Shown here one piece after another: positions 3,167 to 35,499 of a stretch of 35,499 nucleotides of DNA; position 1 is the stretch's first letter; every line of letters begins with the position of its first letter. The notes beneath the pieces are model-generated. The model was not told the DNA's origin. It saw only the letters and a program-made list of their open reading frames with translations, and did not search any database. Source of the stretch: Tissierellia bacterium (lineage in GTDB: Bacteria; Bacillota; Clostridia; Tissierellales; Tepidimicrobiaceae); contig JAAYHX010000013.1 of assembly GCA_012735215.1 (NCBI GenBank), positions 1 through 35,499 of the forward strand, given 5' to 3'. Position numbers and translations under genes: made by a program.

Positions 3167-4564
3167 TTAGATTCTCTTCCACTTAACTCCTTCAGGTGTA
3201 TCCTCCAAGACTATGCCTTTTTCTCTTAACTGGTCTCTCATCTTATCAGCTAAAGCATAATCCTTATTCTTCCTAGCTTGAGTTCTCTTTTCTATTAGTT
3301 CCAATATATCCTCTTCCAAAATCTGATTTTCCTTATACAATATACCTAATACTCTAGATAAGCTTAGTAAGTTATCATAGGTATATTGTATCACAGATTT
3401 AGATGTTTTCTCATTGAAATTAGAATTTGTAAACTTGATTAGTTCAAACAGGCTAGCTATGGCTTCTGCAGTATTTATATCATCTTCCATACTGTTTATG
3501 AAATCTTCAATATACCCGTCCACCTGTTTTAACATCTCTTTTTCTTCTTCATTAACTTCCCTATCTTCAGCCTTAGATAGAAGGTACTCCAGATTATATT
3601 TTCCATTGTAAAGTCTTTCTAAAGCTCTTTTAGATGATTCCATCAGTTCCTTGCTAAAGTTTATTGGGTTTCTATAATGGGCTGATAGTATGAAAAATCT
3701 TAATACCTCTAAATCAAATTCCTGACTTATCTCTCTCACGGTAAAGAAATTCAACTCTGATTTTGACATCTTCCTGTTATCTACATTGATCATAGCATTA
3801 TGAAGCCAATAATTGGCAAAAGGCTTGCCTGTTAAGGTTTCTGTTTGAGCTATTTCATTTTCATGGTGAGGAAACTGTAAGTCCTCTCCTCCTGCATGAA
3901 TATCAATGGTCTCACCCAGAAGCTCCTTAGCCATTACAGAACATTCAATATGCCATCCGGGTCTTCCTTTTCCCCAGGGGCTATCCCATGAAGGTTCTCC
4001 TGGCTTAGCCTTTTTCCATAAAGCAAAATCCATAGGATTTTTCTTCTCTTCACTTACTTCTATCCTTGCTCCACTCTTTAGTTCATCAAGGTTCTTCTTG
4101 GATAGCTTTCCATATTCATAGGCTTTAGTTATGTCGAAATACACATTTCCATCCACATTATAGGCGGCACCTTTTTTAACTAGGTCATCTACAAATTCTA
4201 TTATCTTACCTATATATTCTGTAGCTCTAGGATGAAGGGTTTCTTCCTCATACAAGGATAAACCCTCAGCATCTTTTATGAACTCTTCTATATATCTGTC
4301 TGCAATTTCCTTAACTGTAGTATTTTCTTCATTGGCCTTATTTATCAGCTTATCATCTATATCTGTAAAATTAACTGTGTACTTAACCTTATATCCTTTA
4401 TAGACAAAGTATCTTCTCAAGGTATCAAATACTACCAATGGTCTTGCATTGCCCACATGTATATAGTTGTATACTGTTGGTCCGCATACATACATGGTGA
4501 TTTCATTTTCCTTAACAGGTTTAAACTCCTCTTTTTTTCTAGTTAATGTGTTATACAGTTTCAT
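3167..4564 (-). CDS. cysS: Cysteinyl-tRNA synthetase
   Basis: A class I aminoacyl-tRNA synthetase that attaches cysteine to tRNA(Cys). The HIGH-type motif appears as YIHVGNARP and the KMSKS loop as NRKMSKSELNF. The N-terminal CGPTVYNY and the later GWHIECS and FPHHENE segments hold the zinc-binding Cys/His/Glu ligands that discriminate cysteine. An ATG 15 nt upstream is in frame but lies inside the GGGAGG ribosome binding site. The start at 4562-4564 has correct spacing and gives 465 residues, normal for CysRS. Transcription is controlled by the upstream Cys T-box (4616-4840). thyX, rlmB and yacP follow without a visible terminator and are probably in the same unit. Confidence 0.97.
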   Translation of the reverse strand: MKLYNTLTRKKEEFKPVKENEITMYVCGPTVYNYIHVGNARPLVVFDTLRRYFVYKGYKVKYTVNFTDIDDKLINKANEENTTVKEIADRYIEEFIKDAEGLSLYEEETLHPRATEYIGKIIEFVDDLVKKGAAYNVDGNVYFDITKAYEYGKLSKKNLDELKSGARIEVSEEKKNPMDFALWKKAKPGEPSWDSPWGKGRPGWHIECSVMAKELLGETIDIHAGGEDLQFPHHENEIAQTETLTGKPFANYWLHNAMINVDNRKMSKSELNFFTVREISQEFDLEVLRFFILSAHYRNPINFSKELMESSKRALERLYNGKYNLEYLLSKAEDREVNEEEKEMLKQVDGYIEDFINSMEDDINTAEAIASLFELIKFTNSNFNEKTSKSVIQYTYDNLLSLSRVLGILYKENQILEEDILELIEKRTQARKNKDYALADKMRDQLREKGIVLEDTPEGVKWKRI

Positions 4565-4615
4565 TTTTATACCTCCCATCTATTCATAAATAAATAGTAC
4601 TTAACTAACTATTAT

Positions 4616-4840
4616 AAAAAAACCGCCTCTAAGCAAAGAGACGGTAGATCCGCGGTTCCACTCTATTTGGCTAAAGCCCACTTCACTATTATTAACGGAA
4701 TAACCCGTATCCCCCTACAATAGCTTCAGAGGATCTGTTCAGAGGTGCACTTCAACTATAATTTAACCTAAGGACCTCTTTCAGCCTAGGAAAGTCCCTC
4801 TCTTTTAGGTGATTATAGTCTACTCTCCCCATCACAACCT
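4616..4840 (-). promoter_or_regulatory. T-box riboswitch, specifier TGC (cysteine), upstream of cysS
   Basis: The T-box element TGGAACCGCGG is at 4650-4660 (minus strand). It is followed by an intrinsic terminator whose 9-bp stem ACCGTCTCT/AGAGGCGGT occupies 4622-4645 and ends in a T run at 4616-4621. Stem I is formed by CTATAAT pairing with ATTATAG. The AGTA and GAA elements of the specifier loop flank TGC at 4747-4749, followed by the conserved purine A. Uncharged tRNA(Cys) should pair with TGC and its 3' end should stabilise the antiterminator, allowing cysS transcription. I see no convincing promoter immediately upstream; transcription may enter from gltX or from an unusual promoter. Confidence 0.93.
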
Positions 4841-4874
4841 TTATCTATTTACTTAAACTTAATGTAAGTATAAC

Positions 4875-6359
4875 TTAAATGTGATTCTTCTCTACATATT
4901 CTATTCTCTTTATGATATTTTCCTTGCCCAAAAGATAGATTATGTTTACAAGCTCTGGGCCATGGTTAGCTCCTGTTAAAGCAACCCTAACAGGCATAAA
5001 GAGCTTCTTGCCTTTAACTCCTGTAGATTTTTGAATAGTCTTCATGACTTTTTTTGCAAACTCCATATCAACTTCTTCTACTTCATCTACTGCTTCCTTT
5101 AAAGCCTTCAGAACCAAGGGAGTTTCTTCCCATTTCAATATTTCCAATGCCTCTTCATTTTCTGGCTCTACAGTATCTGCAAAGAATATATCTACCTTAT
5201 TCACTATTTCAGATAGATAGGATAAGCCTTCTCTTACAGTTTCCACCAGAGTCTTAATCCAATCAAATCTTTCATTTATAAAGCCATCATCAATATAGCC
5301 TGCATCTTTTAAGTATGGTATAGCAAGTCTAGTGAGTTTATCTAGGTCATAACTTCTTATATAATTTCCATTTACCCAATCTAGCTTATCATTATCAAAT
5401 ATTCCCCCAGCATTAGATACCCTTTCAAAGGTAAACTCCTCTATCAGCTCCTCCATGGATAAGATCTCCCTATTGTCTTCAGGAGTCCATCCCACTAAAG
5501 CTAGATAGTTTACTAGGGCTTCTGGAAGATAACCTTTTTTCCTAAAGTCCTCTACTGAAACATCTCCGTGACGCTTGCTCAACTTCTTCCTATCCTTATT
5601 AAGAACTGTAGGTAGATGAACATAGGTAGGCTTCTCCCATCCAAAAGCCTCGTATATATATACATGCTTAGGGGTTGAAGGAAGCCATTCCTCTCCTCTT
5701 ACAATATGAGTTATACCCATTAGGTGGTCATCTATAACTACTGCTAGATGGTAAGTTGGAAATCCATCTGACTTCAAGAGCACTTGATCATCTAGATCAT
5801 TAGTATTTATAGTTATATCTCCTCTAATAAGATCCTTGAACTTTATATCCCTGTTAGCAGGCAGCTTAAGTCTTACTACATATTCCTCACCATTAGCTAT
5901 TCTTTCCCTTGCCTCTTCTAGACTCAAGCTTCTACATAATCCATCATATTTAGGAATCTGACCCTTAATTTTTTGCTCTTCTCTAACCTTATCTAGCCTT
6001 TCCTTGGAGCAGAAGCAATAGTAGGCATAGCCATTTTCAATCAACTGGTCAACATATTCCCTATATATATCCAACCTTTCTGACTGTATATAGGGACCAA
6101 AATCTCCCTTTTGTACAATCTTACCATCTTCTACAAATACGCCTTCATCATATTTTATTCCTGCCCATTGTAAGGAAGCTATTAGATTTTCAATAGCTCC
6201 TTCAACATATCTAGTCCTATCTGTATCTTCAATTCTCAATATGAATTTTCCACCATGGCCCTTAGCAAACAAGTAATTATATAAGGCTGTTCTAAGTCCA
6301 CCTATATGTAAATATCCTGTAGGGCTAGGAGCAAATCTTAGTCTAACTTCTTTCAACAA
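4875..6359 (-). CDS. gltX: Glutamyl-tRNA synthetase
   Basis: A class I synthetase that charges tRNA(Glu). The N-terminal ATP-binding motif is [17 protein letters not shown] and the second signature is [14 protein letters not shown]. The helical anticodon-binding domain fills the C-terminal third. Its length of 494 residues is usual for bacterial GluRS. The start is a TTG: two consecutive TTG codons (6357-6359 and 6354-6356) follow GGGAGG at 6365-6370, with spacings of 5 and 8 nt, so the exact first codon is uncertain by one. It has its own promoter at 6391-6419 and no T-box, unlike cysS and ileS in this window. Confidence 0.96.
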
Positions 6360-6432: not shown

Positions 6433-7287
6433 CTACCCAAACAATCTGTTGAAAAAGTTTATAACTGCATCTAGTATTCTCTGCAATAAGGACTTTACCT
6501 CTATATTTTGCTGCAATACCTGGTCAATTTTCCCAGATATATCCTTTAGCTGCTCTTTTATCTTATCGATATCTAGGTCTAGCTTTGATACCTTTTGCAT
6601 TAGAGAAATAATTTGATCAATTTGTTCCTGAGTTAACTGTATGGATAAGTCTTCTGCTATTTCCCTAATAACCTTTTCAATAGAATCTTTATCCTTAATA
6701 TTCTTATCAATTATATAAACCTTTACGCTATTTATCAACTCCTGGGCCTTTTCTTTCCCAATGGCTTCTCCAAGTTCAGCAGTAATTACTATTTCTTCGC
6801 TGGCTGTCTTCTTTTCTTCTTCTGTAATCTTCTCCCCACTCGCATCTTCAAATGCTTTAATAATACCAGTTAAAGCTGCTGTTCCTGATACCCTTACAGG
6901 GCACCCAACTACTATCTTTGCATCCTCTATTCCCGCTGTAATACAGGCGTTTCTATACATGTCCTCAGTTACCCAGAATATATTGTGGGTTTCTACAGTA
7001 ATACCTGAACCAGCTGGCAGCTTCTCCACATAGGCAGAAGACAAGGCCTTACGCCCAATTAGACTTTCATCAATGTATTCTCCAAAGTAATCCCTTTCCT
7101 CTTGGTTAGTTACATATACAATCCTTACATTCTCATCTACATTAAAGAATTCAAGCATCTGTTTCTTTTGCTGATCAGTTAAATCATTTCCTAAGGTAAC
7201 AACAATATTATCCTCCGTATCAGCATAGGACAAGGTTGAAATACCAAGCATGCAAACTATTAAAATACAGGTAATAAACTTTCTCAC
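6433..7287 (-). CDS. Secreted DUF1002 family protein (YpuA-like)
   Basis: An exported protein of unknown function that I recognise as the DUF1002 family, related to B. subtilis YpuA. The frame is open further upstream, but the site GAGGTGA followed by GTG at 7285-7287 gives a clean signal peptide. That peptide starts RKFITCILIVCMLGISTLSYA, with probable cleavage after the final alanine. The conserved central block includes VVGCPVRVSGTAALTGI and a glutamate/lysine-rich helix. The last 90 residues look helical, with heptad-like leucine/isoleucine spacing that may form a coiled coil. It lies between gltX and the ProRS-like gene and has its own -10 box and an inverted repeat upstream, so it is probably independently expressed. 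Nothing in the sequence reveals a biochemical activity. Confidence 0.85.
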   Translation of the reverse strand: MRKFITCILIVCMLGISTLSYADTEDNIVVTLGNDLTDQQKKQMLEFFNVDENVRIVYVTNQEERDYFGEYIDESLIGRKALSSAYVEKLPAGSGITVETHNIFWVTEDMYRNACITAGIEDAKIVVGCPVRVSGTAALTGIIKAFEDASGEKITEEEKKTASEEIVITAELGEAIGKEKAQELINSVKVYIIDKNIKDKDSIEKVIREIAEDLSIQLTQEQIDQIISLMQKVSKLDLDIDKIKEQLKDISGKIDQVLQQNIEVKSLLQRILDAVINFFNRLFG

Positions 7288-7327
7288 CTTAATCACCTCA
7301 TTCATTTCCAATTGTTTAAATTGTTCT

Positions 7328-7411: not shown

Positions 7412-7436
7412 AAAGGCTAGATAAATTCTAGCCTTT
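7412..7436 (-). terminator. Intrinsic terminator after the ProRS-like gene
   Basis: AAAGGCTAGA (7427-7436, read on minus) pairs with TCTAGCCTTT (7412-7421) around a 5-nt loop, followed by TTATT. The stem begins at the stop codon of the ProRS-like gene. Confidence 0.8.
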
Positions 7437-9033
7437 ACAATTTAAGTCCTTGTATCTCATATTCTTCTTTTATCCTATCCAAGATCTCATCAGCAGGTAT
7501 TTCACTCTTTTCATCTTCTCTTCTTAAGGAATACTCAACTATCTTTTCTGCAGCTCTCTTCCCTACTGTAATTCTTATAGGAATACCAATTAAATCCCTA
7601 TCCTTAAACTTAACTCCAGGTCTTTCATTTCTATCATCTAATAATACTTCTATACCTTCTTCCTTTAACTTCTTATAAATATCTTCTCCTAGTTTAGCTT
7701 GTTCTTCATCCTTTGCTTTCACAACTGTTATTATTGCTTGGTAAGGTGCTAAAGCAAGGGGCCAAACAATACCATTTTCATCATGATTCTGCTCAACTGC
7801 AGCAGCTAGTAATCTAGAAGCATTCAGCTTATAGCTTCCCACAGCAAAGGGCTTTTCTTTACCATCTTCATCTAAAAAGGTAGCATTGGCAGCCTCACTG
7901 CATTTTGTTCCCAATTGGGTCATGCGTCCTACTTCTATACCCCTATCCACATTTAATAGTTGGCCGCACTTTGGACACATATCTTTATCCTCTACTAAAA
8001 GCAGATCCTCTACTACCTCTCCTTCAAAATCCCTTCCATAGTTTACATTCTTAATATGATAATCGGTTTCATTTCCACCTACAATCAAGTTTTTCATCTT
8101 GGTAATTCTTGAATCTACAATTACCCTAACCCCTTCTTTTAAACCAACAGGTCCTGCAAATCCTTTTACTGCACCAGTTATATCCTCAACTACTGTTTCA
8201 TCAGCCATCTCTAACTGATCCTGAGAAATACCTAAGTAATTACATAGCTTGACTTCATTTAACTCTCTATGGCCTGGAACAACAACTAATATTGGCTTTC
8301 CATCGGCCACATATATTAAAGACTTACCAAAATTGCTCTTATCCATATCAAAAAATGCTTCCAAATCCTCTATGGTGGTTACATCAGGAGTATGTACCTT
8401 CTCCATGGGCATTTCAGCTTCCTCTTGTTCCTCCATATTATATACTACCTTTGCATTATGAACATTTGCCCCGTAATCGCATTTATTGCAATAGACAAAT
8501 ACATCCTCCCCTACTTCTGCTAGGGCAATAAACTCATGACCTTCTTCTCTTTCTGTTATCCTATACTTTAATTTTAGCCTTTCTAAAATGCTTTCATAAG
8601 CTTTCCTCACATGGCTATAGGAATTGTTCATTCCATCTATATCTTTATCATAACTATAGGATTCCTTTTCCAGGTTTTCTTTAGCCCTTATCAGTCCATA
8701 TCTTGGCTTTATCTCATCCTTGTGGCTATTATAAACCTGATAAAAAGTCAAAGGTAATTGCTTGTAAGATCTAACCTCACTCTTAATCAAAGGGGTTAAA
8801 TGGTCTTCGTAGGTAGAAGCTAAATAAAACTCTTGAGCCCCTGTTTTATCCATCTGCTGCCTTATTATATCCTCTATTTTCTTTAATACTCTATGTCCAA
8901 TAGGTAAGTAAGAATATACACCCAAATCAATTCTTCTAATCATTCCTGCTCTAAGTAGTAATTGATGACTTGGAACTTCCGCTTCTGATGGAACTTCTCT
9001 TAAGGTTGGCATGTACAGTCTAGACATTCTCAT
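7435..9033 (-). CDS. Bacterial-type prolyl-tRNA synthetase-like protein with degenerate catalytic core and intact INS editing domain
   Basis: It aligns with bacterial ProRS from the N-terminus (SEAEVPSHQLLLRAGMIRR) to the C-terminal anticodon-binding domain (DDRNERPGVKFKDRDLIGIP). At 532 residues it is shorter than the usual 565-575. Compared with E. coli ProRS, about 35 residues are missing between GAQEF (65-69) and STYED (73-77). Motif 2 FRDExRPR is HKDEIKPR (104-111). The segment GSIGGS before HEF is lost. Motif 3 GIGVxR has become KLNASR (402-407). The INS editing domain (about 220-345) keeps the lysine of NFGKSL (K237), the GPVGL loop, the IVDSR aspartate and the histidine in NETDYHIKNVNYGRD (H326). 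I infer loss of aminoacylation with retained Ala-tRNA(Pro) deacylation. The frame is open throughout, so this is not an obvious pseudogene. Automatic annotation would call it proS. Confidence 0.88.
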   Translation of the reverse strand: MRMSRLYMPTLREVPSEAEVPSHQLLLRAGMIRRIDLGVYSYLPIGHRVLKKIEDIIRQQMDKTGAQEFYLASTYEDHLTPLIKSEVRSYKQLPLTFYQVYNSHKDEIKPRYGLIRAKENLEKESYSYDKDIDGMNNSYSHVRKAYESILERLKLKYRITEREEGHEFIALAEVGEDVFVYCNKCDYGANVHNAKVVYNMEEQEEAEMPMEKVHTPDVTTIEDLEAFFDMDKSNFGKSLIYVADGKPILVVVPGHRELNEVKLCNYLGISQDQLEMADETVVEDITGAVKGFAGPVGLKEGVRVIVDSRITKMKNLIVGGNETDYHIKNVNYGRDFEGEVVEDLLLVEDKDMCPKCGQLLNVDRGIEVGRMTQLGTKCSEAANATFLDEDGKEKPFAVGSYKLNASRLLAAAVEQNHDENGIVWPLALAPYQAIITVVKAKDEEQAKLGEDIYKKLKEEGIEVLLDDRNERPGVKFKDRDLIGIPIRITVGKRAAEKIVEYSLRREDEKSEIPADEILDRIKEEYEIQGLKL

Positions 9034-9191
9034 ATTTATTCCTCCTCAGAATTAGTATTTGAAACCGCAACAAATTATATCTTGCTTACCAAACACGAAA
9101 GCCCTATATTAATTATGCTTTTGCAAATAAAAGTCTTCCCTTTCCCTATAAACAATATAATTTATGAAATTTTCGCAAAATATAATAAAAA

Positions 9192-9219
9192 CTTTCATCT
9201 CATGTACATGAGACGAAAG
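9192..9219 (-). terminator. Terminator-like hairpin between promoter and ProRS-like gene
   Basis: On the minus strand CTTTCGTCTCATGT is followed directly by ACATGAGATGAAAG, a 28-nt palindrome with one G-U pair, then TTTTTATTATATTTT. It may be the ispD-ispF terminator, or an attenuator for the ProRS-like gene, because a promoter lies upstream of it at 9297-9325. Confidence 0.75.
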
Positions 9220-9296
9220 ATTTATCTAGTTTTGTTTACTTACAGCTCTTTATTCTATGGGATTATAGATAATATGGCTATGTTTTCCATATATAC

Positions 9297-9325
9297 AGAA
9301 TATCAAAAGATAAATAGATTGTCAA
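9297..9325 (-). promoter_or_regulatory. Promoter upstream of the hairpin and ProRS-like gene
   Basis: A consensus TTGACA (9320-9325) is separated by 17 nt from TATTCT (9297-9302), immediately after the ispF stop codon. A transcript starting near 9290 would meet the hairpin at 9192-9219 after about 70 nt. Confidence 0.65.
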
Positions 9326-9333
9326 TTTTTTGA

Positions 9334-9813
9334 TTATTTATCGATAGGTACTATTGAGCATATGCTGTAGGCAGCTAAGCCTTCTTCTTTGCCTACAAAA
9401 CCTAACATTTCTGTAGTTGTAGCCTTAATGTTTATTTTCTCCTTAGGTACATTTAAGACACCTGCTATCTTTTCTTTCATATCTTCTATATAGGGAGCCA
9501 TCTTAGGCCTTTGGGCAACTATTATGGCATCAATATTGCCAATTGTATAGTTTTCTTCTTTCATAATATCATATACCCTCTTTAGGAGTATTAGACTAGA
9601 AATATCCTTGTACTCTGCATCAGTATCGGGGAAATGCTTACCAATATCCCCTAGTCCCAAGGCTCCTAAGATACTATCCATGATAGCATGAGTTAATACA
9701 TCTGCATCAGAATGGCCAAGTAAGCCTCTTTCAAAGGGAATATCAACTCCTCCAATGATCAACCTTCTTCCTTCTACCAACCTATGAACATCATAACCTA
9801 TGCCTACTTTCAT
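9334..9813 (-). CDS. ispF: 2-C-methyl-D-erythritol 2,4-cyclodiphosphate synthase
   Basis: The fifth enzyme of the MEP pathway for isoprenoid precursors; it cyclises CDP-methylerythritol 2-phosphate with release of CMP. The N-terminal metal-binding motif GIGYDVHRL, the segment [17 protein letters not shown] and the C-terminal [15 protein letters not shown] are all present. The length of 159 residues is standard for this homotrimeric enzyme. It starts at an ATG preceded by AAGGTGA, 10 nt after ispD, so the two form an operon. Confidence 0.97.
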
Positions 9814-9823
9814 CTATTTCACC

Positions 9824-10564
9824 TTACCTTGTGTTTAAAATGAACTCTTTCCTAGAATATATTCGAACTCTATCCTTCAACATGGATTCTGCTATTATAA
9901 TATCTTCTGGTGTAGTTATCTTAATGTTTTCATAGCTTCCCATCACTATCTTCACATCTATTCCTAGTCTTTCCACTAATACACTATCATCAGTTCCTAT
10001 AAAATTATCTTCTATGGCCTTTTTATAACCTTCCATCAATATTTCTCTTCTAAATGACTGGGGAGTTTGAGCAGCCCATAGAACATCTCTATTTGGTGTA
10101 TGATCAATATTTTGATCATCTTTAACAAATTTAATAGTATCCTTGACAGGGGTAGCAATAACACAAGCACCATACTTTTCTGCTCCCTTTATACTATCAA
10201 CAATATTTTTAATCTTGACAAAAGGTCTTGCTCCATCATGGGATACTACTATATCGGTTTTGCTATTTAATGCTAAGATACCATTATATACAGAATCCTG
10301 CCTTTCTTTTCCTCCACGGACAATCTTTGTAACCTTATTGAATCCATATCTTCTAACTATTTCCTTCTTGCAATAGCTTATCTCATCTTCTTTTGCTACT
10401 ACTATTATTTCATCTATAAATTTACACCTTTGGAATTTCTCTAAAGTGTGAGCCAGTATAGGCTTGCCATTTATATTTATAAATTGCTTGTTGATTTTGC
10501 TTTTCATTCTGTTGCTCATGCCTGCAGCTGCAATTATAGCGGAAATATATTGATTTTTATACAT
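9824..10564 (-). CDS. ispD: 2-C-methyl-D-erythritol 4-phosphate cytidylyltransferase
   Basis: The MEP-pathway enzyme that joins MEP to CTP. The nucleotide-binding N-terminus is SAIIAAAGMSNRMKSKINKQ. The mid-protein motifs VVSHDGARPFV and VIATPVKDTIKFV and the C-terminal TTPEDIIIAE are diagnostic. A GTG 9 nt upstream is in frame but is part of the GAGGTG ribosome binding site; the ATG at 10562-10564 is correctly spaced and gives 246 residues. It is co-transcribed with ispF from the promoter at 10583-10610, diverging from the type-3 ProRS gene. Confidence 0.96.
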   Translation of the reverse strand: MYKNQYISAIIAAAGMSNRMKSKINKQFININGKPILAHTLEKFQRCKFIDEIIVVAKEDEISYCKKEIVRRYGFNKVTKIVRGGKERQDSVYNGILALNSKTDIVVSHDGARPFVKIKNIVDSIKGAEKYGACVIATPVKDTIKFVKDDQNIDHTPNRDVLWAAQTPQSFRREILMEGYKKAIEDNFIGTDDSVLVERLGIDVKIVMGSYENIKITTPEDIIIAESMLKDRVRIYSRKEFILNTR

Positions 10565-10582
10565 GTGCTTCACCTCTTGAAT

Positions 10583-10610
10583 ATTATAGCATAGTTAACA
10601 AAAACATCAA
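10583..10610 (-). promoter_or_regulatory. Promoter of ispD-ispF
   Basis: An extended -10 (TGC then TATAAT, with the hexamer at 10583-10588) lies 16 nt from TTGATG (10605-10610). The predicted leader is very short, about a dozen nucleotides, and consists mostly of the ribosome binding site. Confidence 0.65.
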
Positions 10611-10758
10611 ACAAATTAATAAAATCCCTAATATATTGTGTAAAAATGAACATAATAATAAGAACCACATTTTTACTATTTATATATAAAAAGGTAGCTG
10701 GATTGTTATTTAAGATTCTTATTATTGACGATACTTTTATAATGGTATATAATAATCT

Positions 10759-10787
10759 TTAACATTTAAACAATATATCGCTATAAT
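10759..10787 (+). promoter_or_regulatory. Promoter of the type-3 proS gene
   Basis: TTAACA (10759-10764) and a perfect TATAAT (10782-10787) are spaced 17 nt apart, about 55 nt upstream of the start codon. The rest of the 283-nt divergent gap to ispD is very AT-rich and shows two loose inverted repeats (10640-10648 with 10668-10676, and 10654-10664 with 10716-10726). There is no T-box. Confidence 0.75.
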
Positions 10788-10847
10788 GTAAAAATATCAT
10801 ATCACTAATAATAATATATCAATATAAATAACTATGAGGTGATGGAA

Positions 10848-12296
10848 ATGGGTAACTCGAATAACGAGCAAAAGTTTGTTAAAGAAATAACACCTATGGA
10901 GGAAAATTTTTCCCAATGGTACACTGATGTAATCTTAAAAACTGATATGGTAGACTACTCTCCCGTAAGAGGATGTATGGTTATAAAGCCATATGGATTT
11001 AGCGTATGGGAAGGTATCCAAAGAGTTACAGATTGGAGATTTAAGAAGACTGGTCACAAAAATGCTTATTTCCCACTTCTCATTCCTGAAAGTTTCCTAG
11101 AAAAAGAAGCTTCTCACTTTGAAGGTTTCGCTCCTGAAGTACTATGGGTAACTCATGGAGGTTCAGAAGAACTTACAGAAAGACTATTTATAAGGCCTAC
11201 TTCTGAAACCATTATATGTACCATGTATTCAAAATGGATTAAATCCTATAGAGATTTACCAGTACTGATAAATCAATGGTGTAACGTAGTTAGATGGGAA
11301 AAGACGACAAGGCCCTTCTTAAGAACTGCAGAATTCTTATGGCAAGAAGGCCATACTGTTCATGCTACATATGAAGAAGCCCAAGAAGAAACACTACAAA
11401 TGTTAGAGATCTACAGACAAGTTGCCGAAGATGAATTGGCTATGCCTGTAATATTGGGAGCTAAGAGTAAACAGGAAACCTTTGCTGGTGCTGATAGAAC
11501 TTATACAATGGAAGCAATGATGCACGACGGTAAAGCTCTTCAAGCTGGAACTTCCCATAACTTAGGTCAAAACTTTGCTAAGATGTTTGATATCACCTTC
11601 TTAGATAGAGATGGAGAATTGAAATATGGCTGGAGTACTTCCTGGGGTATATCTACCAGATTAATTGGTGGCTTGATCATGGTTCACGGAGATAATAGAG
11701 GATTGAAGATGCCTCCAAGAATTGCACCAATTCAAGTTGTTATCATACCAATTGCTACTCATAAAGAAGGAGTACTTGATAAAGCCTATGAATTGAAGAA
11801 ACAACTTGAAGACAAGTTCAGGGTTGAACTAGATGACAGAGAAGAATATAGTGCTGGATGGAAATTTAATGAGTGGGAAATGAAGGGTGTTCCATTAAGA
11901 CTAGAAATGGGACCAAGAGATATAGAAAATAATCAAGTAACAGCTGTTAGAAGGGATACATTAGAGAAGTTTACATTGCCATTAGACAACCTAGAGGAAA
12001 AAATTGAGGAAGTTCTAGAAGACATCCAAAATACAATGTTTAAAATGGCACTTGAAAATAGAGAAAAGAAGACTTATGCTACAGTAGACTATGATGAGAT
12101 CAAGAGGATCTTCAAAGAAAATCCTGGATTTGTGAAAACCATGTGGTGTGAGAATGATGAATGCGAGGATAAATTGAAGGCTGATACAGGAGCAACTATC
12201 AGATGTATACCTTTCGAACAAGAACACATTGGGGATACTTGTCCTATGTGTGGTAAAAAGGCAACTACAATGGTTTATACTGCTAAAGCATATTAA
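10848..12296 (+). CDS. proS: Prolyl-tRNA synthetase, archaeal/eukaryal-like type 3 (no INS domain)
   Basis: A complete class II ProRS that charges tRNA(Pro). Motif 1 (YSPVRGCMVIKPYG), the proline-binding TxE loop (RPTSETI), motif 2 (VVRWEKTTRPFLRTAEFLW), EGHTVHA and motif 3 (SWGISTRLIGGLIMVHGD) are all intact. The C-terminal domain has the type-3 zinc-binding cysteines (CENDEC and CPMCGKK) and ends in the conserved tyrosine. No INS editing insertion is present. The ATG at 10848-10850 follows TGAGGTG at good spacing; the GTG at 10839 and the ATG at 10842 lie in or too close to that site. The gene gives 482 residues. It is on the plus strand amid minus-strand genes and has its own promoter and terminator, so it may have been inserted into the cluster later. 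It is probably the only catalytically competent ProRS here. Confidence 0.97.
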   Translation: MGNSNNEQKFVKEITPMEENFSQWYTDVILKTDMVDYSPVRGCMVIKPYGFSVWEGIQRVTDWRFKKTGHKNAYFPLLIPESFLEKEASHFEGFAPEVLWVTHGGSEELTERLFIRPTSETIICTMYSKWIKSYRDLPVLINQWCNVVRWEKTTRPFLRTAEFLWQEGHTVHATYEEAQEETLQMLEIYRQVAEDELAMPVILGAKSKQETFAGADRTYTMEAMMHDGKALQAGTSHNLGQNFAKMFDITFLDRDGELKYGWSTSWGISTRLIGGLIMVHGDNRGLKMPPRIAPIQVVIIPIATHKEGVLDKAYELKKQLEDKFRVELDDREEYSAGWKFNEWEMKGVPLRLEMGPRDIENNQVTAVRRDTLEKFTLPLDNLEEKIEEVLEDIQNTMFKMALENREKKTYATVDYDEIKRIFKENPGFVKTMWCENDECEDKLKADTGATIRCIPFEQEHIGDTCPMCGKKATTMVYTAKAY

Positions 12297-27349: not shown

Positions 27350-27600
27350 AAAAAAAGTCCCTAAGTAAAATATACTTAGGGACGGATTAATTCCGCGGTA
27401 CCACCCATCTTGTAAGGCAAAAATACATACCTTACCTCTCCTTTTAGTATAACGCACTAAGCGTAACATCCTACTGCTATTTCAGATGCTATGCTCCGAA
27501 GTGATCTTCGTAAAAGGATTCATTAATAATCTCTCACCAAGCGATTATTTCTCTGTATAATGAATTCTTTTACTACTCTCTTCATCATCGCATGTTCCTA
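27350..27600 (-). promoter_or_regulatory. T-box riboswitch, specifier ATC (isoleucine), upstream of ileS
   Basis: The T-box sequence GGGTGGTACCGCGG is at 27393-27406 on the minus strand. A terminator follows with an 11-bp stem GTCCCTAAGTA/TACTTAGGGAC (27357-27383) and a T run (27350-27356). In the 5' part, GAAGATCACTTC presents the specifier ATC at 27503-27505. Uncharged tRNA(Ile) should promote read-through into ileS. Confidence 0.94.
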
Positions 27601-33349: not shown

Positions 33350-33372
33350 CTGTTAGATTGTAATTTGGCCAT

Positions 33373-33401
33373 AAAAAAACTTCTTGCTGGCAGCAAGAAG
33401 T
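33373..33401 (-). terminator. Attenuator terminator of the uraA leader
   Basis: ACTTCTTGCT/AGCAAGAAGT (10-bp stem, 3-nt loop, 33379-33401) is followed by seven T residues on the minus strand. Its 5' arm TCTTGCTG can alternatively pair with TGGCAAGA in the 3' arm of PyrR hairpin 1, giving an antiterminator. Confidence 0.88.
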
Positions 33402-33443
33402 AATATTCATGTTTGGCTATTTATAACCATCACCGTTAATTAC

Positions 33444-33478
33444 AATCTTGCCAGCCTCACGGGACTGATTTAAAGATT
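33444..33478 (-). promoter_or_regulatory. PyrR-binding hairpin 1 (distal)
   Basis: CAGTC-CCGTGA-GGCTG with lower stem AATCTT/AAGATT. It matches the PyrR recognition hairpin that acts as an anti-antiterminator in Bacillus pyr leaders. UMP-bound PyrR should favour the downstream terminator. Confidence 0.88.
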
Positions 33479-33496
33479 AAATCTTAATTTTCAATA

Positions 33497-35433: not shown

Positions 35434-35499
35434 ACCTGGCAGCGTCCTACTCTCCCAAGGCGTCTCCACCTTAGTACCATCGGCGCTGAGAGGCTTAAC
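35434..35499 (-). rRNA. rrf: 5S ribosomal RNA, 3' portion (runs off the window)
   Basis: The minus strand contains GTTAAGCCTCTCAGCGCCGA at the window edge, then GGTACT, and ends GGGAGAGTAGGACGCTGCCAGG. These are the conserved 3' half of bacterial 5S rRNA. Only about 66 of roughly 117 nt are inside the window, and the exact 3' end is uncertain by a few bases. Confidence 0.93.

Follow-up and report, generated by a model that had tools for sequence, protein, structure and literature searches.

A decayed prolyl-tRNA synthetase paralog as a candidate editing-only protein beside a type-3 enzyme in a Tissierellia bacterium

Introduction

Alanine wrongly attached to tRNA(Pro) is hydrolyzed by the INS domain of bacterial prolyl-tRNA synthetase (ProRS) or cleared in trans by ProXp-ala, which, like PrdX and other single-domain proteins, belongs to the same INS family. 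According to one study, editing by the INS domain of Escherichia coli ProRS needs reading of G35/G36 by the anticodon-binding domain (ABD) and not of the acceptor stem, which is what ProXp-ala reads (PMC3973320). A 2024 review describes eight families of single-domain trans-editors, the superfamily being single-domain apart from the INS domain itself (PMC11295145). Two other systems derive from threonyl-tRNA synthetase (ThrRS). Archaeal ThrRS-ed combines an editing domain with an ABD, has no active synthetase core, and serves an editing-less synthetase in trans (PMC7373986, PMC11295145). With Anabaena ThrRS T1/T2, one duplicate supplies trans-editing to an editing-weak partner (PMC4787780). 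Here, we compare these systems with a gene at positions 7435–9033 (minus strand) of a 35,499-nucleotide stretch from a Tissierellia bacterium (contig JAAYHX010000013.1, hereafter the window), encoding a decayed INS-containing ProRS paralog of 532 amino acids that is a candidate for an editing-only protein.

The explanation that we favor, and consider quite likely, is that the original ProRS of this bacterium stopped charging tRNA once a type-3 (archaeal/eukaryotic-like) ProRS without an INS domain was present, and that it now only proofreads the Ala-tRNA(Pro) made by that enzyme. The same had been suggested by an earlier reading of the window, referred to in the following as the original prediction.

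Results

Domain organization and damage to the synthetase site

The open reading frame (ORF) at 7435–9033 starts with ATG and is uninterrupted. Pfam analysis of its product showed a tRNA_edit domain at residues 215–331 (97.6 bits), an HGTP_anticodon domain at residues 432–523, and a weakened class II core (58.5 bits), so that the protein is not single-domain and consists of INS, ABD and a remnant core. The INS (YbaK-like) editing domain, encoded at 8041–8391 (minus strand), retains K237, GPVGL, D307, N321 and H326; the ABD, at 7465–7740 (minus strand), retains DDR..ERPGVKFKDRDLIGIP. By Pfam, the editing domain is of the INS/YbaK type and not of the ThrRS type, and the NCBI model for Ser-tRNA(Thr) hydrolase covered only residues 411–527, on the ABD side, scoring 21.3 bits (cut-off 362). 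At 588.5 bits, the protein exceeded the cut-off of 558 of the NCBI equivalog model for proline–tRNA ligase, and the top PDB match was the Enterococcus faecalis ProRS, aligned as two pieces. An AlphaFold model of the protein, with a predicted local distance difference test (pLDDT) score of 87.5, superposed over about 520 residues on bacterial ProRS crystal structures (VIA Z 44.3), and the second of our two models had a pLDDT of 83.0 and a VIA Z of 34.1 to bacterial ProRS. The ProRS fold is thus predicted to be retained in both models, which are silent on ATP or proline binding.

Damage to the core was numbered on E. coli ProRS (K-12 proS). As originally predicted, about 35 core residues and the GSIGGS segment have been lost: by alignment, the protein lacks 35 residues of the region 66–108, before the TxE loop (approximately 8820–8845, minus strand, near residue 65 of the window protein), and 7 residues of the region 196–208, the GGS loop (approximately 8525–8550, minus strand, near residue 165). 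No residue of either region is absent in 65 ProRS checked from genomes without a type-3 ProRS (the 66 described below, less G298). The predicted loss of the motif 2 arginines was correct for R140 and R153, which are both Lys, and incorrect for R151, which is retained along with E142; F155 has become Asn. Both motif 3 glycines were replaced, as predicted (G445 by Lys, G447 by Asn), and R450 of this motif remains, as do the TxE residues T109 and E111. Of the invariant positions, the protein retains 62% of 58 in the N-core and 67% of 18 in the C-core. The intact class II motifs and GGS loop of active INS-containing bacterial ProRS were not found. An assembly error is an unlikely source of the deletion, which is in frame and internal to the contig, has conserved neighbors, and resembles deletions in other genomes.

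The damage is concentrated in the synthetase site. Compared with 17 normal relatives from its family, the window protein is 47% identical in the N-terminal core, where the normal proteins are 85% identical to each other; the corresponding figures are 65% and 75% for INS and 66% and 75% for the ABD. The expected INS catalytic residues were indeed present, with K237, the GP of GPVGL, D307 and H326 invariant in a 14-sequence alignment that included the window protein, and retention of the ABD was also borne out, all inspected positions being kept. Conservation of the INS residues extends to the decayed sequences from other genomes described below. K279, G336, G339, P340, D350, G362, N364 and H369 were unchanged in all 31 rows examined (29 decayed sequences plus G006 and G294), so that Lys279, Asp350 and His369 are kept by 29/29 decayed sequences. 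I263 and L266, which we take to be alanine-pocket residues, were each kept in 30 of the 31 rows, and both are present in the window protein. The catalytic and presumed alanine-pocket residues of INS are thus strictly conserved.

Gene neighborhood and T-box control

The second ProRS gene, at 10848–12296 (plus strand), encodes a complete type-3 enzyme without INS, as the original prediction had it: the protein scored 615 bits with TIGR00408 (cut-off 437), has a proS_fam_I core and a C-terminal ProRS-C_1 domain, and had 1h4q as its best PDB match. An alternative GTG start is possible at 10839. The gene lies upstream of the decayed gene, beyond ispF (9334–9813, minus strand) and ispD (9824–10573, minus strand). 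Its product is 82–83% identical to the Lutispora and Anaerosalibacter proteins, and the gene was probably gained by transfer.

Downstream of the decayed gene are a gene for a putative exported protein of 292 amino acids (6433–7311, minus strand) and gltX (4875–6359, minus strand). The names of ispF, ispD, gltX and the rest of the locus are presumptive and come in part from the original prediction. The 292-amino acid gene comes next after proS in 18/18 family loci examined (L005–L019, L021, L024, L025). In G006, a genome of the same family, a 13-kb stretch has the order disA-carD-PIN/TRAM-ispD-ispF-proS-292aa-gltX-cysS, and in other genomes of the family, whose loci are shorter, this order can be followed from ispD or ispF to gltX, within their reach. 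The window has the G006 order with the type-3 gene inserted, on the opposite strand, between PIN/TRAM and ispD. The claim that the decayed gene is in the usual ispD-ispF-proS-gltX position therefore stands, and the shared gene order indicates that 7435–9033 is the original bacterial ProRS gene, still in its old neighborhood.

The leader of the decayed gene (9034–9333, minus strand) is located where relatives have a proS T-box and aligns loosely with theirs; it contains a terminator-like hairpin at 9192–9219 and gave no T-box match. A T-box leader was found upstream of proS in 18 of 21 loci of relatives without a type-3 ProRS. Of the three loci without a match, two offer nearly no upstream sequence, and the absence at L025 is genuine. 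Judged by eye, the G005 leader has the proline codon CCC as its specifier. T-boxes also precede the INS-ProRS genes of G006, G020 and G213, as well as the type-3 gene of G006. None was found at the decayed gene or the type-3 gene of the window, nor at any of the other decayed genes outside type-3 operons that were searched (0/11 with the window; G024, G113 and eight Aedoeadaptatus, each with upstream sequence of more than 1 kb; G298, G317, G360, G504 and G592 were outside this search). The type-3 genes of G024 and G113 have a T-box, that of G113 just at the cut-off; none was found at four Aedoeadaptatus type-3 loci or at the G020 type-3 locus. A promoter scan gave sites no more numerous than in shuffled sequences. 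Weak Rfam matches to microRNA and snoRNA families at the decayed gene or the type-3 gene of the window were below the gathering scores and were taken as chance.

The window has two other T-box leaders, at 4634–4844 and 27375–27597 (both minus strand), the first directly upstream of the ORF at 3167–4579, which we take to be cysS. It also contains a tRNA (227–299), a PyrR site (33371–33480) and a partial 5S rRNA (35434–35499).

Recurrence in other genomes

We collected 131 INS-ProRS sequences and aligned 130, scoring as decayed those that retained less than 75% of the 58 invariant N-core positions. The one dropped before alignment, G029, has a stop or frameshift that divides its ProRS gene into two ORFs (L070, 5786–7538) and may be a sequencing error; that genome is 97% complete and had no type-3 match. 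Decayed synthetase cores were found in 29 of the 130, which supports the suspicion that a wider class is hidden under the name proS. They comprise 27 of 63 sequences from genomes with a type-3 ProRS, a set that includes loci picked for looking decayed, eight of them from one genus, and that may hold the same or nearly the same species twice (e.g., N167 and G495); 1 of 66 from genomes without one, a subset of the INS-positive genomes of this kind that were found; and G046 (82% complete, type-3 not found). The sole decayed case among the 66, G298, had no detectable type-3 ProRS and carries an INS-less bacterial ProRS of 421 residues, with motifs that look intact, on the same contig (loci L221, L231); it therefore conforms to the general pattern, though through another partner enzyme. 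Recurrence of decay is thus nearly confined to genomes that have an INS-less ProRS.

In the host order (249 genomes), type-3 ProRS was found in 49 genomes (E value up to 1e-80) and INS-ProRS-like proteins in 213 (E value up to 1e-30). Both occurred in 19, and the INS-ProRS was decayed in 14 of these: eight of one genus (Aedoeadaptatus, by matching records), G024, G042, G043, G045, G113 and the window genome. In G213, G020, G052 and G187, an intact INS-ProRS stands alongside the type-3 gene. The INS-ProRS of G006 (L072, 6066–7799) has intact frame and length, with a motif 2 Arg changed to Ile, an altered GGS loop and a motif 3 Gly changed to Asn, and so looks like an early stage of conversion; the type-3 ProRS of this genome is on a separate contig and is 61% identical to that of the window. 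A class sample of 393 genomes, our only even sample, had type-3 ProRS in 224, INS-ProRS-like proteins in 188 and both in 34, the overlap of the two lists being made by eye. The INS-ProRS was decayed in 6 of these 34 and undecayed in 28, and more strongly decayed copies may fall under the E-value limit of this search.

The window protein is among the least decayed of the class, only G504 and G298 being comparable. Of six decayed proteins analyzed with Pfam, two still matched the class II core and four, strongly decayed, showed only tRNA_edit and HGTP_anticodon.

A contig scan with the type-3 protein gave 80 loci, some with short flanks, and an INS-ProRS-like ORF was present in the flanks of 13. 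By titled records, ten of these were decayed, all of them downstream of type-3 proS on the same strand: Tepidibacter (3), Alkalithermobacter, Marinisporobacter (2), Alkaliphilus sp. CROMO_A_126, Thermosediminibacter litoriperuensis, UBA3567 and UBA8670, the last with a sequence identical to G045. The gap to type-3 proS, by ORF bounds, was at most about 150 bases in nine and about 1 kb in one Tepidibacter (L133). A T-box was found ahead of type-3 proS in 10 of 11 operons searched, Thermosediminibacter being the miss. The remaining three INS-ProRS were intact (Alkaliphilus peptidifermentans, Clostridioides difficile CD160 and Metaclostridioides mangenotii). In C. difficile CD160 (L167, 8750–12077), an INS-ProRS with intact motifs adjoins the type-3 ProRS, with a T-box ahead of the pair, and both synthetases seem to be kept.

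Two trees were made, one of 98 rows, from the INS and ABD columns only, and one of 44 rows; besides E. coli, they took in 97 and 43 sequences of the alignment, respectively. On the 98-row tree, the 29 decayed rows require at least 10 changes, gains or losses; counting G006 as decayed raises this to 11, and well-supported branches force 5 of them. A quick search on the 44-row tree rejected a single ancient decayed family, both when 17 rows were constrained to group, with G006 but not G298 among them (approximately unbiased (AU) test, p = 0.0009), and for 16 rows, without G006 (p far below 0.001). The window protein places beside the normal G005 in the 98-row tree. The 44-row tree rejected its grouping with Aedoeadaptatus alone (p = 0.009), the 98-row tree did not (p = 0.08), and grouping with G006 was not rejected (p = 0.52, 44-row tree).

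Related decayed genes are under purifying selection. The whole-gene ratio of nonsynonymous to synonymous substitution rates (dN/dS) was 0.09–0.26 in seven of eight decayed-gene pairs, the eighth being saturated, and 0.05–0.06 in three normal pairs; core parts reached 0.57 in one decayed pair. These values show that the genes are kept, with a relaxed core. For the window gene against two normal relatives, whole-gene dN/dS was 0.07 and 0.10, with dS near saturation and the normal branch sharing in the value.

Discussion

These results suggest the following order of events. An INS-less type-3 ProRS would have entered the genome and taken over charging, after which the old bacterial ProRS would have ceased to charge tRNA. 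Being without INS, the type-3 enzyme would need help from editing in trans. The ABD of the decayed protein would hold tRNA(Pro), reading its anticodon, and the INS domain would hydrolyze the alanine wrongly attached by the type-3 ProRS. A requirement of INS editing for ABD reading of G35/G36 would explain why the ABD is kept in the decayed proteins. Loss of synthesis with retention of INS and ABD is what an anticodon-reading Ala-tRNA(Pro) trans-editor would be expected to look like.

Several points weigh against this explanation. T109, E111, E142, R151 and R450 are all retained, so that weak synthesis by the window protein is possible. The same genome encodes a free-standing, ProXp-ala-like protein of 171 amino acids (PDB relatives 1vki, 8huz and 5vxb), so the activity may be redundant; a TTHA1699-like protein is also present. 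Expression is uncertain, since the leader keeps a terminator-like hairpin without a T-box, and no second genome of the window's genus was found in searches of the order. Finally, decay is not inevitable, as 28 of the 34 class-sample genomes with both enzymes keep an undecayed INS-ProRS.

The original prediction had proposed to look for an absence of ProXp-ala, and here the outcome was contrary to expectation. We looked for a ProXp-ala-like match (E value up to 1e-8) in the 35 genomes of the order that are at least 90% complete and have a type-3 ProRS. One was present in 11 of the 13 genomes whose INS-ProRS is decayed (in G058 only as a broken fragment), in 1 of the 5 whose INS-ProRS is intact or nearly so, and in 16 of the 17 without INS-ProRS; at an E value of up to 3e-30, the counts were 10, 1 and 7. 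The decayed INS-ProRS thus usually accompanies a ProXp-ala-like protein rather than replacing one, and a simple stand-in for a missing ProXp-ala is not supported. This distribution would suit an editing-only protein with a substrate other than Ala-tRNA(Pro), such as another small amino acid on tRNA(Pro), with alanine already cleared by the ProXp-ala-like protein. However, a change of substrate would be expected to show at I263 and L266 or at the catalytic residues, which are conserved in nearly all or all of the 31 rows, and we consider this alternative unlikely.

The operons with type-3 proS in several lineages, together with the predicted retention of the overall fold in both models, could also mean that the role of the decayed protein is to bind tRNA as a partner of the type-3 ProRS, or to regulate that enzyme, in the manner of the HisZ-type synthetase paralogs, editing being incidental. 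Such a role is very improbable, because the hydrolytic positions of INS are among the most strictly kept of all and a protein acting only as a partner could do without them. It is similarly hard to believe that the gene is on its way out in this species and has no present function: it is known from a single genome and its leader looks broken, but the frame is open at full length, INS and ABD are far less changed than the core, and the dN/dS against normal relatives is low, albeit with dS near saturation. Least probable of all is a still working, perhaps specialized, prolyl-tRNA synthetase, for although TxE, E142, R151 and R450 are retained and the equivalog cut-off is passed, the core has lost 35 residues and the GGS loop, the motif 3 glycines and R140 are changed, and the gene has no T-box, which 18 of the 21 proS loci of relatives do have.

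Conversion of the old ProRS to a proofreader for the type-3 enzyme may not be confined to the window. It seems somewhat better than an even guess that there is a recurrent class of multi-domain trans-editors under the name proline–tRNA ligase, for which we suggest the term "ProRS-ed": bacterial ProRS would repeatedly have become an anticodon-reading Ala-tRNA(Pro) hydrolase after takeover by an INS-less ProRS, often in one T-box operon, with the T-box staying with or moving to the active synthetase. If so, cells that also have ProXp-ala would check Ala-tRNA(Pro) twice, independently and at opposite ends of the tRNA. The change from a synthetase to a dedicated proofreader would be seen with its intermediate stages, which bears on the origin of free-standing editing factors. 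Some clostridial genes that pass proline–tRNA ligase models are probably not ligases, which would affect annotation, metabolic models and lists of drug targets. An editing-only enzyme would also be a test bed for the anticodon signal from ABD to INS over about 70 Å, a question left open in PMC3973320.

A literature search by title and opening of the abstract, mostly without subscription papers, found nothing on a ProRS-derived editing-only paralog. The parent enzyme, the INS-containing bacterial ProRS (2j3l, 5znj), agrees with the window protein in domain order, gene position and predicted fold, but the synthetase motifs of the latter are damaged or lost. ProXp-ala and PrdX share the INS family and are single-domain, ProXp-ala reading the acceptor stem, whereas the window protein keeps the ABD and most of the ProRS body. 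In the Anabaena pair, T1 keeps aminoacylation and switches with zinc, while the synthetase site of the window protein has decayed instead. The closest design is archaeal ThrRS-ed. It differs in being archaeal, in acting on another tRNA and amino acid, and in having an editing fold homologous to DTD and not to INS; moreover, the decay of ProRS is visible at intermediate stages. The ThrRS-ed layout of editing domain and ABD without a core is that of four of the six decayed relatives scanned, whereas the window protein still has its class II core match. We therefore regard the window protein as a candidate for a ThrRS-ed-like design that has arisen from ProRS.

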